A stretch of 64,000 nt of DNA from Chloropicon primus (lineage: Eukaryota; Chlorophyta; Chloropicophyceae; Chloropicales; Chloropicaceae), in assembly GCA_023205875.1 (NCBI GenBank), contig CP060755.1, forward strand, positions 372,001 to 436,000. The letters are read 5' to 3'. The first letter of the stretch is position 1; each line of letters opens with the position of its first letter. The position numbers were made by a program, and so were the translations under genes. The notes beneath the pieces were generated by a model. It worked only from the letters and a program-made list of their open reading frames with translations, did no database searches and was not told the origin of the DNA. Below are positions 13,153 through 19,964 of this stretch, piece by piece.

Positions 13153-13583
13153 CTTGAATGAGGTGTTACTTTCTTGGGGGTGTTGTGCGACGAGTGGCTC
13201 GTTGTTCTGGTCAGCCAAGGTACCCTGCGCCCGCCTCCAGTCACCTCCTCCATCATCGTTTCAAGCGGAGGAGAAACCGAAGTCTCCCTTTTGAAAACAA
13301 AACGCGGGAATTTCGAAAGGGAGACACGCGACGGACATCGTAAAAGACTCTATTGAAAAGACGTCTTAAAGGCCCAATCTTGGGTTTTGACAAAAACGAA
13401 ATGGTTTCAACATTTCCGTATTCGGTTTCGCTTTCGCTTTCGTCGCGATGGCGTCCGTGTTCCAGGGCGGGCCCCGGTGCGCAGTCGATCAAACGCAAGG
13501 TGAACGCCGTCGCACACTACAGCACGAAGCGAGCGAGTCAAACAAACACTTCTTCACACAACCAACACTTGTACTTGACCGTC
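13153..13583. promoter_or_regulatory. Shared H2B/H2A divergent promoter
   Basis: Both genes are read outward from here. A near-perfect inverted repeat has 15-nt arms at 13282-13296 and 13311-13325 (one mismatch), enclosing ACAAAACGCGGGAA; GCGGGAA is the core of an E2F site. Each gene also has a CGTCGCACA element near its start: 13182-13192 for H2B (minus strand) and 13508-13520 for H2A. Confidence 0.65.
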
Positions 13584-13955
13584 ATGTCCGGAAGAGGAAA
13601 GGGAAAGAGCGGCAAGAAGGCCGTGACCAAGTCCGCCAAGGCTGGACTCCAGTTCCCAGTGGGAAGGGTCAGAAGGTATCTGAAGAGCGGAAAGTACGCC
13701 ACCAGGATCGGATCCGGTGCCCCTGTGTACTTGGCCGCCGTCCTCGAGTACCTCGCCGCTGAGGTTCTCGAGTTGGCCGGAAACGCCTCCAGGGACAACA
13801 AGAAGTCCAGGATCATCCCAAGGCACATCCAGCTCGCCATCAGGAACGATGAGGAGTTGAGCAAGTTGCTCTCCACCGTCACCATCGCCGCTGGTGGTGT
13901 CTTGCCAAACATCCACTCCGTCCTTCTCCCAAAGAAGTCCGGAAAGAAGGCCTAA
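13584..13955 (+). CDS. H2A: Histone H2A
   Basis: Core histone, 123 residues, intronless, from [14 protein letters not shown] to [10 protein letters not shown]. The histone fold is canonical ([14 protein letters not shown], acidic-patch residues in [19 protein letters not shown]). It is not an H2A.X: the C-terminal SQ motif is absent. No histone-type stem-loop was found just after the stop, unlike H4. Confidence 0.99.
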
Positions 13956-14621
13956 GGGTTGGGGTTCTCAAAAAAGAAGAAGAATGTATTTCTGTATCTA
14001 TTGTGATTCTGTATTATAACGTCCAAAAACAAAACGCTTGCTGTTCTCCGACTAACTTGTCCGGCCCGCACCGACTTGCTCGTTTCTGTGCCAATTCACA
14101 ACCGACCAGCTTTCCTCCTCCTACCCCATCACACACACACACTAAACATGACGATGGTGGATGATGATGATGGTGACCAGTTTCTTCCCCAAGATCCTCT
14201 GCGTGTGGGTGAATTGAGCCCAGGCCTCAAGGTCAACCCCCAATCCGTCCACAATTTGCTGTGTCCCCCCCACCACACCACACCACACCACACCACGGGC
14301 AGGGAGGGCGCTCTCAAACCAGGAATCCGTGGCGTGCTGCCTCCTGGAAGTCGGGAGGGAGAGAAGAAGGGAGAGGAGGGAGGTGATGGTGATGGTGATG
14401 GCGGGGAAGGAGGGGGACGGCGGTGGGAGGTCGAAGGACAATGAATTCACGCTCCTCTCCCTCTTTCCAAAGAACCCTCGCTTGATGGGGTAACCGGGAA
14501 AGAAGGTCATGGATCATCACTGATCAGGCCAAAAGGGCTTCCCTCTCCCAGATCTCCCTGCTCTTGCTCTGCCAGAAGATAAGGTAAGGTAACAGCGGAG
14601 AGAGGAGGTCGAGAGGGAAGA
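13956..14621. other. Intergenic region H2A-UVR8
   Basis: Contains a tandem CCACA repeat at about 14270-14298, GAT-rich and GA-rich tracts, and several overlapping short ORFs with no recognisable product. Presumably the H2A 3' UTR and the UVR8 promoter. Confidence 0.4.
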
Positions 14622-15995
14622 ATGGGGAGCAAGTACTTGTGCGCGTCGTGCGGAAGCAGCCACACGGCGATCATCTTGAGCGAGAAGAATGCCGTGTTCA
14701 CGTGGGGACGCGGGGAGGACGGACAGCTCGGTCACGGCGACGCGGAGTCTCAAATCGTGCCGGCGCTCGTGCAGGCCCTGGAGGACAAGGAGTGCGACGA
14801 GGTCGTGTGCGGGGCGGAGTACACGATAGCCGTGTCGCACAAGAGGCAGAAGATTTGGAGTTGGGGCTGGGGAGACTTCGGTCGTCTCGGCCACGGCAAC
14901 CCGACGGACCTCTTCATCCCCAAGCAAGTGTCGAGCCTGTGCGATGTCAAGATAAAGATGGTGGCTTGCGGCGATTCGCACACCATGGTGGTCACGGGCG
15001 ACGGGTCCGTCTTCAGCTTCGGAAGGAACCAGAACGGCCAGCTCGGGCTCGGCAGCAAGATCGACAGCATGCTTCCCACGCAGATAATGGACTTGAAGGA
15101 CCACCAGGTCGAGTCCATCGCGTGTGGCGCGGAGCACACGGTGGCTTGCACGTCCAAGGGAAAGACGTTTGCGTGGGGGTGGGGGCTTTACGGCAACCTC
15201 GGCCTCGGCGACAACGAGGACAGGTAAGGCGGGAGGCCCGCAATCACCCGTAACGGTTGGAGCGCGCGGGGGGGGGCGTGGAGCGAAGTGAACTCCTTTC
15301 TTGGCTTGGGAGGTAAGACTGACTCTTTCGCGTTTTCATTCTTTCGCAGGCTGCACCCCTCCGAGGTCCAGAGCCTGACGGCCTCGAACACCTTCATCCA
15401 GACGGTGGCTTGTGGCTGGAGGCACTCCTGCGCCGTGACCGACAAGGGGGAGCTGTACACCTTCGGCTGGAGCAAGTACGGGCAGCTCGGGCACGGGGAC
15501 AACGAGATCGCGGCCACCCCCAAGAGGGTGGCGGCCCTGGAGGGCCGGACCGTCGTGAACGTGAGCGGCGGCTGGAGGCACACCATGACGTCGGACTCCG
15601 AGGGCAAGGTGTACGCCTGCGGCTGGAACCAGTACGGCCAGGTCGGAAACGGAAACAACGAGGACGTGAACACGATGACGGCCATCAAGGCGCTCCAGGA
15701 CGAGTTCGTCACCTTGGTCAGGTGCGGTTGGAGGCACTCTGTCGCCATCACGAAGTCGGACAAGCTCTACTCCTTCGGAAGAGGCGTGCACGGGCAGCTG
15801 GGGCACCCGCAGAGGAAGGACTTCAGCGTCCCCACCCTGCTCACGGGCCTGGACGGCGGCGTCGGGGCCGGATCGAGGCCGGCGGCCCAGGCCAAGGACG
15901 CCGTCCTGATCTCGGCCGCGGATAGGTACGCCACCGTTCCGGACAACCCGACGCCGGGCCAGGGCGCCGCCAAGAAGCTCAAGACGGATCCGTGA
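14622..15995 (+). CDS. UVR8: UV-B photoreceptor UVR8
   Basis: Seven-bladed RCC1-type beta-propeller that senses UV-B through tryptophans and signals to photomorphogenesis genes. Exons 14622-15223 and 15350-15995 (donor GTAAGG, acceptor TTTCGCAG) share one arginine codon and give 415 residues. Blade motifs match plant UVR8 (WGRGEDGQLGHGDAES, WGWGDFGRLGHGN, WGWGLYGNLGLGDNED). Three G-W-R-H motifs put tryptophans at 224, 276 and 328, spaced 52 and 52, exactly as W233/W285/W337 of Arabidopsis. The C-terminal tail has DRYATVPDN, matching the RYAVVPDE segment whose VP pair binds the COP1 ligase. This separates it from ordinary RCC1 proteins. Confidence 0.95.
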
Positions 15996-17059
15996 GCGTA
16001 GTCGAAGGTGGGAGGAAAGAGGAAAGGGGAAAGGGAGGGACATGTAATAATTGTTGTTGAATGGACAATGTTTTCCAGCAGCAAGAAAAAAAAAACCGGA
16101 TTCCAGATCAACACCAATATCGATATCAATATCAATCAGAGGTGTTGTATCTATATCTATTCACACACACAACAACAGCAACCCACACGTGCATGCATGC
16201 ATGCATTGAGAGAGAGAGAGAGAGAGAGAGGGAGAGAAGAGAAGAGCTCCTTGAGGATGTATGTATGTCAATTATTTTCTTGAGGAAAGTCCGTCCGTCC
16301 ACACCACACCTTCCATTGATGGATGGATGGAATGGGATGGATCCAATCCATTCATTCTACCAAGGAGAAGGAAGGAGCAAACTACACAATCCACAATCCA
16401 CAGTCCTTAGTCATCATCCCACCATCGGTCATGACAGCCTCCTCACGCGCCATTGATAGGTCATCGTCCCAGTAAAAATAACGTCTTTAACAGAACCTTA
16501 ACTCTCAGCCTCTCCTTCGGTGTTGCAAAGCAGAGAGGAGCAAAAAAAACGGACGGTCCCTTCGCGCTCGCGCTGTCGGGGTCCAAAGTAATCTCCAGGA
16601 AGAAGAGAAACAAAGGGCGTACGAACGGTGAGGCCCGCTAGATTCACCTCCCTCCCTGTTACAGGACCTCCAAACACTCGGGGAGCTCGTGTTCGTTTTC
16701 TCGGTGAAGTAATAAGGTAATCACTATCGAGTCCTCAGCTCAGCTCACGTGAACGCTGTTACGTGTTCGCTCGTGTTGCTCCGGGCCGGGTCTGGTCTGG
16801 TCTTGAAGTTCTAACCTCTTCCCTCGTACTTCGTTACTTCTTTCCTCCTTCCTCTTCCTCTTCATCTCTCTTGTTCTCCCACCAGTGGTCGTGGTCGTGG
16901 TTGTGGGTGTTGCCAACTTCGACTTCGACTTGGCCCCAAGCCCGAAGGACGAAGGGGCAGACGAAGTGCCAGCGCACGAGTGGCCGAAGAATTTTGGCGG
17001 CACGACTTGGGAGGTGGTTTCTGCGCCTTTCTTGGTTGGGGAAGGGCGGGCCTCGTGCC
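15996..17059. other. Intergenic region upstream of the homeodomain gene
   Basis: The UVR8 3' end has TGTAA at 16043-16047. Then come CATG repeats and a GA tract (16190-16240) and GGAT-type repeats (16315-16345). Between 16885 and 17059 one frame reads VANFDFDLAPSPKDEGADEV..., looking protein-like and preceded by a pyrimidine-rich CCACCAG; it could be an extra 5' exon of the next gene, but no joining phase was established. Confidence 0.4.
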
Positions 17060-17222
17060 ATGAGCTCGGGTAGCAGAAACAAGATGGCAAAAGTTCGGAA
17101 AAGGGTGAACAGGTTCGACGAGTTCGAGAAGGACTTGCTGGAGCGGAAGTACGTGCATCGACTGGGGCAGTTCGAGCCCTCGGACGGCGGGGGAAACCCG
17201 TCGCCAGAGACCCGACTCAAAA

Positions 17223-17263
<41 letters not shown>

Positions 17264-18628
17264 TTTTGCAACTTGTCTTGTGGCCTTTTTGACGAAACGC
17301 ACTACACAACACCCAACCCCGGCAACCGCAGGTTCAAGGCGAACAAGACCCCCAGCTCAGAGGCCTGCCAGGAGATAGCGAACCTGATCAACGACAACAG
17401 GAAGAGCAAGAACACGACGGAAAAGAACGGAGCCATGTTCGTGCTGACGGGGAAGCAGATAAAGTTCTGGTTCGACCACAGGCGAAGGATACAGAACCAC
17501 GGGACGTACAAGCCCCTGAAGCCGGGCTCGAGGAGCTCCAAGAAAGCCTCGACGCCAAAGAGGTCGACCAAGACCGTGAAGGCGGAGCAGAAGAGCGGCG
17601 CCAAGCAGGTGGCGGGGAACCTCAAGGAGGAGTCGAAGCGCCAGCAGCCCGCCAAGGGCCAGCAAGCCTCTGCGAGGCAGCCTGCCGCGGAAGACCAGGG
17701 TGTCGCGAGCACCAGCGGCTCCAAGTCAACAACAGGCCCGGAGATGACGAGCTTGCCGTCCTGGATGCACTCCTTCCAGCTCCTGCCCTTGATGTCCACG
17801 ATGAAGTACGCGACGTATCCCCCGGGGACGGTGATCATCAAGAACGGGGAGCTCTCGGACGACCTGTATTTCCTTCTCAAGGGTTCTGTGAAGGTGATCG
17901 ACGTGAACAACAACGAGGTCGCGGAGCTCAAGGAGGGAAGCTTCTTCGGGGAGATGGGAGTCATTGACAAGGGCCCGAGGACTGCCACCGTGGTTGCGGA
18001 GGACCACTGCCACGCCTTCATCATGTCGGGAGAAGTGGCCAGGGACATGCTGGAGTGCGAGCCGGTGGTGAGCAAGGACGTGGTGGACCAAGCGACCAGC
18101 CGGCTTCTTGACTTGCTCAAGGCCTACGAGACGTCGCCAGCGAGCAAGTTGGTCGGCGCCAACATCCTGAAGTTCAACGTGTACAAGAAGGGGCAAATCA
18201 TCCTCAAAGAGGGCGAGTACACGGATGACTTTTACTTTTTGAGCAAGGGGAGCGTGGTGGTGACGAAGCAAGGGAACTACATCAGCAAGCTCAACGAAGG
18301 AACGTTCTTCGGGGAGATGGCAGCCTTGTGCAGTGGGGCGAGGACGACCACCGTGACTTCGGCCGAGGACTGCGAGGTCTTCTTGCTCCCGGGCGAGATC
18401 TTGAGGATGCTCTCCAAGGACGACAAGGACCTGAAGAATGGCATTGGGGAGACGCTGAGGAACGTCGTTTTCGCAAGGGCGTATGACACAATGATGGCGC
18501 TGACTGATAACTCGATCAGGCCAACGACCGCGGATATCGCTGTGTCAACGATGACCATGAGTGCTGACCTCAAGCTGGCCCTGTTCCAGCTCCTCAAATG
18601 TATACATAACGTTACTGTGAACATATGA
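17060..18628 (+). CDS. Homeodomain protein fused to two cyclic-nucleotide-binding domains
   Basis: A single frame links an atypical homeodomain to tandem CNB domains. From the ATG at 17060 a basic start (MAKVRKRVNRF) leads into helix 1 (FDEFEKDLLERKYV), then helix 2 (NKTPSSEACQEIANLIND) and recognition helix LTGKQIKFWFDHRRRIQN (about 17440-17505). W48, F49 and R53 are present; N51 is replaced by H, and there is a long helix 2-3 insert. A K/Q/A-rich linker follows (17520-17760). CNB-A (about 17770-18080) has FFGEMGVIDKGPRTATV and CNB-B (about 18130-18450) FFGEMAALCSGARTTTV: both keep the phosphate-cassette E and R that bind cAMP/cGMP in PKA and PKG. A CT repeat at 17227-17260, in frame as SLSLSL, is probably intronic (acceptor CAACCGCAG before 17332; donor unclear). 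From about 17340 to the stop the frame is unbroken. Confidence 0.8.
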
Positions 18629-19360: not shown

Positions 19361-19964
19361 ATGGCTTCTCAAGGGGCACAGCTTCAGAACTACAACAACG
19401 AACTCGTCAAATGTAAGTTTTTTGTGTGGGACTGCCGTTCATCCTGGCGCTGCCTCGGCTCGGGAGAGAGACGGGGCGGGGAGCGCTCGAATTGCCTTCC
19501 TTCTTTGCAGGTGCTGCAGCGTCTTTGCGCCCCGCTCTGCTTTCTCTTGCCAGGTGCTTTGCTGCCCACAGACCAAGCAACGGTTTGGTGGCTTCCCCCA
19601 AAAAAGGTTTCAGTTAGTTTTATTTTTGCTGACTCCCTCGCTTTTGCTTTTGTCTTGAAACCTTGGCTTGGGCTGCTCAGGCATCGAGGATCTTCGCGAG
19701 AAGAGGGAGGAGATCAATAGGACTCTGGCAAGTGACGAGCAAGAGAAGGCCAAGATTCAGAATGACCTTGCCATCTTGACGAGGAGGCTGGCCCACCTTA
19801 ACGAGAAGCTCTCCAGGCAAATTGCTTCCAGGAACGAGTACGATAGGACGATTCAGGAGACGGAGGCTGCGTATAGCAAGATCCTTGAATCTTCACAGAC
19901 TTTGCTTACGGTCCTCAAGCGTGAAACTGTAAACATAGCAAAGAAGAGACAGTCGTCATCGTGA
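19361..19964 (+). CDS. SSNA1: SSNA1/NA14/DIP13 microtubule protein
   Basis: Small coiled-coil protein of centrioles/basal bodies and axonemes that self-assembles on microtubules; the Chlamydomonas form is DIP13. Exons 19361-19412 and 19681-19964 (donor GTAAGT, acceptor GCTGCTCAG) split one cysteine codon and give 111 residues (family about 105-120). It starts [18 protein letters not shown], then [13 protein letters not shown], and has the hallmark [20 protein letters not shown] and [13 protein letters not shown], nearly identical to the human protein. The whole chain is one long helix. Its presence suggests a centriole or flagellar apparatus in at least one life stage. Confidence 0.95.

Follow-up and report, generated by a model that had tools for sequence, protein, structure and literature searches.

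One gene of Chloropicon primus encodes a homeodomain followed by two tandem cyclic-nucleotide-binding (CNB) domains. It lies at positions 17060-18628 (+) of the window, the whole stretch of 64,000 nucleotides that was analysed, which corresponds to positions 372001-436000 of contig C2 (CP060755.1) in a genome of 17.58 Mb and 20 contigs. The gene consists of two exons separated by a single 183-base intron, and its product has 461 residues. The presence of the homeodomain and the tandem CNB domains in one gene, first noticed when the DNA was read without database searches (the sequence-only reading), was confirmed, and the arrangement recurs in a family of related proteins. We consider it somewhat probable that the product acts as a DNA-binding regulator under the direct control of cGMP or cAMP, which would bind to both CNB domains. 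The parts of the gene and of its product described below all lie on the + strand.

Gene structure and domains of the product

The raw reading frame runs without a stop across 16721-18628 and carries KQIKFWFDHRRR and the two CNB domains, which had been taken as one uninterrupted coding frame. The homeodomain and both CNB domains do stand in one open frame, but the segment 17149-17331 is an intron and the frame is partly accidental: the length of the intron is divisible by three and by chance it holds no stop, so the raw frame reads through it. In the stretch tested for splice sites, a GT or GC donor could be paired in frame with an AG acceptor in 28 ways, of which 17149/17331 gave 461 residues identical to the database protein P0002. 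According to this splice model, exon 1 (17060..17148) covers residues 1-29 plus two bases of codon 30, with a basic N-terminal arm and the start of homeodomain helix 1 (VNRFDEFEKDLLER), while exon 2 (17332..18628) begins with the last base of that codon and continues through residues 31-461 to the stop. The intron (17149..17331, 183 bases, GTACGT...CGCAG) contains a (CT)n run and is missing from P0002. The unspliced reading was rejected, as its homeodomain reaches 20.4 bits, below the Pfam cut-off of 22.9.

In the database, P0002 is assigned to Chloropicon primus and titled only as a cyclic nucleotide-binding domain-containing protein. The sources of its cluster include ncbi, jgi, uniref, nr, mmetsp and eukprot; the clusters were built at 90% identity, and the mmetsp member, which we take to come from a transcriptome source, may differ from P0002. 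Bacterial contamination was also rejected: the window belongs to a 1.77-Mb contig, the gene has an intron, and frames for histone H2A and RCC1 repeats are found nearby.

The homeodomain spans residues 11-87 (17090..17503) and is split by the intron. The PF00046 profile matched residues 14-81 of the spliced protein with 29.8 bits (E 5.4e-7, curated cut-off 22.9), a score that lies above the cut-off because splicing restores helix 1. The Pfam profile thus accepts the spliced form, and the identification of the first domain as a homeodomain stands. In the AlphaFold2 model, helices are predicted at residues 21-33, 39-59 and 70-86, the second and third being joined by a long loop; the third helix carries the WF core within WFDHRR (residues 76-81, 17468..17485), which is the core of the recognition helix from W48 to R53 in homeodomain numbering. 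The 10-residue block means of the model are 89-91 for residues 21-50, 74 and 69 for residues 51-70 in the loop region and 88 for residues 71-80. The model of the distant relative P0122 has three comparable helices and a short extra helix in the loop. A family homeodomain profile of 12 sequences, which include the homeodomain of the possible paralogue L008/L012 described below, matched a two-engrailed-homeodomain chain in the PDB with E 1.6e-6, and MAT-alpha2 was matched as well.

Asn51 is the main base-contacting residue of homeodomains. Position 51 is H instead of N, as had been read from the letters, and the alignment of the family confirmed this. Asn51 is typical of homeodomains, not defining, and it is absent from the window protein. 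Ten PF00046 matches were found elsewhere in the genome (the window gene, being split by the intron, is uncounted), of which four have N at this position (L001, L002, L007 and L013) and the other six K, Y, Y, S, H or D. As Asn51 is often missing in this genome, H51 alone is no argument against a homeodomain.

Behind the homeodomain, residues 88-170 (17504..17752) comprise the remainder of a conserved extension, NHGTYKPLKPGSR, which starts at residue 85, and a low-complexity linker, for which the predicted local distance difference test (pLDDT) of AlphaFold2 is <50 over residues 92-169. CNB-A covers residues 171-290 (17753..18112) and CNB-B residues 295-395 (18125..18427), both located by Pfam PF00027 and by PDB matches; PF00027 scored 130.9 bits over the two stretches of the spliced protein (E 1.6e-38, cut-off 27.5). 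The phosphate-binding cassettes, placed with the family alignment, are FGEMGVIDKGPRTA in CNB-A (residues 235-248, 17945..17986) and FGEMAALCSGARTT in CNB-B (residues 356-369, 18308..18349). The FGE...R-T pattern noted earlier in both domains is borne out by the sequence and the alignment: in CNB-A, FGE and R are present in 22/22 family sequences and R-T in 21/22, and in CNB-B the full pattern occurs in all 18 sequences that reach it. The cassette Glu and Arg hold the ribose and the phosphate. The CNB pair has its best sequence matches in the PDB with PKG and PKA-R, and the best Foldseek matches are likewise. Helices behind the CNB domains are predicted at residues 274-297 and 395-420; the second begins the conserved C-terminal tail (residues 396-461, 18428..18625, without a Pfam match), whose helices at 395-420 and 441-454 are of low confidence. 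A Pfam scan of the spliced protein at E up to 1 reported nothing beyond PF00027 and PF00046.

A conserved family and a possible paralogue

The family comprises 22 proteins (P0002-P0021, P0122 and P0123), gathered by protein searches that scored 7999 candidates sharing most words, so that members can be missed; P0122 was added by a further protein search. Proteins from P0022 down (<=124 bits) and from P0124 down (<=162 bits), for which no homeodomain was listed, were left out. Helix 3 is missing from P0011, P0018, P0019 and P0123 and the CNB-B cassette from P0015, P0020, P0021 and P0123, all of which are apparently fragments or frame-shifted copies. Identity to the window protein is 69-77% across 97-99% of the query for P0003-P0010, 55% across 98% for P0012, and 40% and 33% across 97% for P0016 and P0017, respectively. 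The members at 69-77% presumably come from other chloropicophytes, and a more distant lineage presumably accounts for those at 33-42%. When 20 members were scanned by Pfam at E up to 0.1, PF00027 was found in all 20 and PF00046 in 16, in some of them under the curated cut-off.

The homeodomain of P0012, used alone as a query, returned 14 proteins including the query itself, and every one of them carries PF00027; among the 103 candidates scored in that search, with lengths of about 228-724 residues, this homeodomain was never met without a CNB domain. A scan of viral_contigs for viral relatives confirmed none of 72 pattern matches. The homeodomain-CNB-CNB proteins form a conserved family, in which the pairing is not due to chance and recurs in relatives from other sources.

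Averaged over eight close relatives, P0002 is 70% identical in the homeodomain and 96% identical in helix 3 plus the extension; the values are 26% for the linker (residues 98-168), 85% for CNB-A and 80% for CNB-B, and the C-terminal tail ranges from 79 to 94% (mean 90%). In the close relatives both ends are thus kept while the linker drifts, the pattern expected of a working fusion. For P0012, P0016, P0017 and P0122, respectively, identity amounts to 55, 45, 30 and 29% in the homeodomain, 68, 45, 45 and 42% in CNB-A and 58, 46, 39 and 46% in CNB-B; the tail is 32-34% identical to P0016, P0017 and P0122.

A genome search with P0002 found one other homeodomain relative, G000:C9:621101-621331 (L008/L012), which is 42% identical over residues 10-84 and has the recognition helix WFDH. 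It scored 57.2 bits with the family homeodomain profile, and the next homeodomain frame scored 13.7. The product of 446 residues has a long low-complexity linker and a C-terminal stretch that matched the Pfam CNB profile with E 0.19, under the cut-off. With the family CNB profile the C-terminal part scored 10.5 bits and the whole protein 7.2, and the best of 2000 shuffles reached 6.9; this test was not blind because the stretch had been picked by eye beforehand. The C-terminus of L008/L012 may be a degenerate CNB domain without a cassette, which we treat as a lead only. If this second homeodomain-CNB gene is real, it would mean that the fusion has diversified.

Cyclic-nucleotide signalling in the genome

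A six-frame search of the genome, in which matches were counted exon by exon and do not represent gene counts, found 49 matches to the class III cyclase domain, seven to PDEase_I and 97 to PF00027, the last of which were grouped by hand into about 47 frames. The cyclase matches stand partly in repeated clusters of equal score (C7:767811-778951 and C15:362595-374588). Of the 46 CNB frames other than the window gene, 26 were scanned by Pfam as open frames with an E limit of 0.001, so that exons and weak domains can be missed. Ten of these carry a kinase domain (one of them also PP2C) and six an ion channel, and the rest consist of one with two cyclase domains, one with EF-hands, one with CNNM and seven with CNB alone. 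Two frames have unusual compositions: L016 joins two cyclase domains and a CNB domain, and L029, around G000:C1:1428388-1429023, combines a protein kinase domain and a PP2C phosphatase with two CNB stretches.

No DNA-binding domain was found in the 26 other CNB frames scanned, and the family homeodomain profile gave no match above 1.5 bits on any of these frames. The fusion with a homeodomain is therefore exceptional among the CNB proteins examined. By summed score, the frames closest to the family CNB profile are the four-CNB kinase L020 (201.1 bits) and other CNB-kinases; the best single domain is that of the channel L025 (77.6 bits).

Proposed function, alternatives and known systems

In the mechanism that we propose, cyclases would produce the cyclic nucleotide, which would occupy the FGE...R-T pockets. 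A rearrangement would then follow in the C-terminal tail and in the helices behind the CNB domains (residues 274-297 and 395-420); the helix after a CNB domain is where CNB proteins relay the ligand signal. The rearrangement could alter oligomerisation, or expose or hide the homeodomain via the flexible linker, and the occupancy of DNA would shift as a result. For the conserved tail, a role in sealing a dimer or in shielding the homeodomain is conceivable. The R-T cassette occurs in cGMP-binding PKG and in HCN/CNG channels, which makes cGMP, or the use of both nucleotides, a likelier choice than cAMP alone. What the analysis shows is the gene structure, the domains and their conservation, the intact cassettes and the cyclase and phosphodiesterase matches of the genome; that the protein binds a cyclic nucleotide and DNA, enters the nucleus and is gated is inferred. 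The earlier interpretation of the protein as a cyclic-nucleotide-gated transcription factor is partly supported.

Several observations weigh against a nucleotide-gated, DNA-binding regulator. Of 18 family sequences spanning positions 50-51, 16 read D-H there, the window protein among them. Four of five scanned relatives (P0013, P0016, P0017 and P0122) scored 17-19 bits, below the PF00046 cut-off; one of these, P0013, is without helix 1, and only P0020 scored above the cut-off. As a single sequence, the window homeodomain had a best E of 0.34 in the PDB search. The homeodomains of P0017 and P0122 (29-30% identity) are more diverged than their CNB domains (39-46%). The predicted template modelling score (pTM) of the AlphaFold2 model is 0.35, and the arrangement of the domains is thus not readable from it. 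A CNB fold may also accommodate a different ligand or no ligand at all, and trypanosome PKA is reported to bind nucleosides.

These points bear on two other readings of the intact protein. The homeodomain might no longer bind DNA and serve as a protein-protein module, so that the protein would be a cyclic-nucleotide-sensing adaptor acting on a partner, like the PKA regulatory subunit. We consider this unlikely, though it deserves attention: the frequent D50-H51, the tandem CNB domains matching PKG and PKA-R best, and the conserved extension after helix 3 would all suit an adaptor, whereas helix 3 with this extension is the most conserved part among the close relatives, two family sequences (P0017 and P0122) have D-N at positions 50-51, and the absence of N51 from six of the ten other homeodomains of the genome indicates that it need not mean lost DNA binding. 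The other reading, in which the protein binds DNA but its CNB domains respond to a different ligand, or to none, and serve chiefly for dimerisation, is rather improbable. CNB folds that bind no cyclic nucleotide are known, and L008/L012, the possible paralogue, would end in a CNB-like tail that lacks the cassette; however, both cassettes, Glu and Arg included, are kept down to 33% identity, and the genome holds the many cyclase and several phosphodiesterase matches given above.

An origin of the fusion in two adjacent genes or an assembly chimera was rejected on P0002 and its relatives, and we regard it as having next to no probability. Nothing beyond the intron read-through in the raw sequence speaks for it, whereas the database holds an identical protein, in a cluster with mmetsp and eukprot sources, the same fusion is present in relatives from other sources, and the genome paper states that the published annotation of Chloropicon primus drew on RNA-seq (PMC6731263).

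Both the homeodomain and the CNB domain are, by profile, known families, and what appears new in the sequences is their conserved union. No homeodomain-CNB family had been known to the sequence-only reading, and in full-text literature searches, which were judged mainly by titles and abstract starts and left subscription literature largely outside, no description of the architecture was met either. A term search of the main text of the genome paper found mention of neither homeodomain nor cyclic nucleotide (PMC6731263).

PKA regulatory subunits and the regulatory part of PKG share with the window protein a tandem pair of CNB domains with intact cassettes. However, Pfam at E up to 1 reported neither a kinase domain after the CNB domains, as in PKG, nor an N-terminal dimerisation/docking domain, as in the PKA regulatory subunit; the protein has a homeodomain instead, and unlike the window protein the CNB-kinase frames of this genome do have a kinase domain. 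The atypical homeodomains HMBOX1 and HNF1 share the long loop that separates helix 2 from helix 3, and the family profile matched homeobox-containing protein 1 (4j19, E 4.4e-5), FLJ21616 (2cuf, E 1.3e-5), which we take to be HMBOX1, and, weakly, HNF1 (1lfb, E 0.0045); the window family differs from them in D50-H51, the NHGTYKPL extension and the CNB fusion. CRP/FNR proteins have a C-terminal winged helix-turn-helix and one CNB domain, whereas here the homeodomain is N-terminal and there are two CNB domains, and Pfam with an E limit of 1 reported no helix-turn-helix. The protein is thus no member of CRP/FNR, nor is it PKA-R or PKG. The analogy with CRP that had been drawn earlier holds for the proposed function only: two CNB domains in tandem form the sensor, and the N-terminal DNA-binding part is unrelated to the helix-turn-helix of CRP. 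Channels stand beside PKG and PKA-R among the best sequence matches, and the PDB rows that carry the name Crp/Fnr have entries and sequence length in common with rows for the channel SthK.

Eukaryotic cyclic nucleotides are known to act on transcription via kinases, exchange factors and channels. We tentatively suggest, as a broader view that may well not hold, that the family in picoalgae represents a eukaryotic transcription factor gated by direct binding of cyclic nucleotides, which would do the job of CRP in one molecule made of unrelated parts and bypass kinases, with a possible degenerate second gene. If true, this would be a one-step route from cyclic nucleotide to transcription, on which the 461-residue protein offers a handle; the design of CRP would have arisen a second time from other parts, and the protein would be a natural module for DNA binding under cyclic-nucleotide control.

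The gene has further neighbours in the window. A small coiled-coil-like protein encoded by two exons at 19361-19964 (+) has no Pfam match and resembles SSNA1/DIP13 of basal bodies. The genome paper describes the vegetative cells of this alga as lacking flagella (PMC6731263). Upstream of the gene, the frames for histone H2A and the RCC1 repeats occupy 13344-15995 (+) and are ordinary nuclear neighbours.
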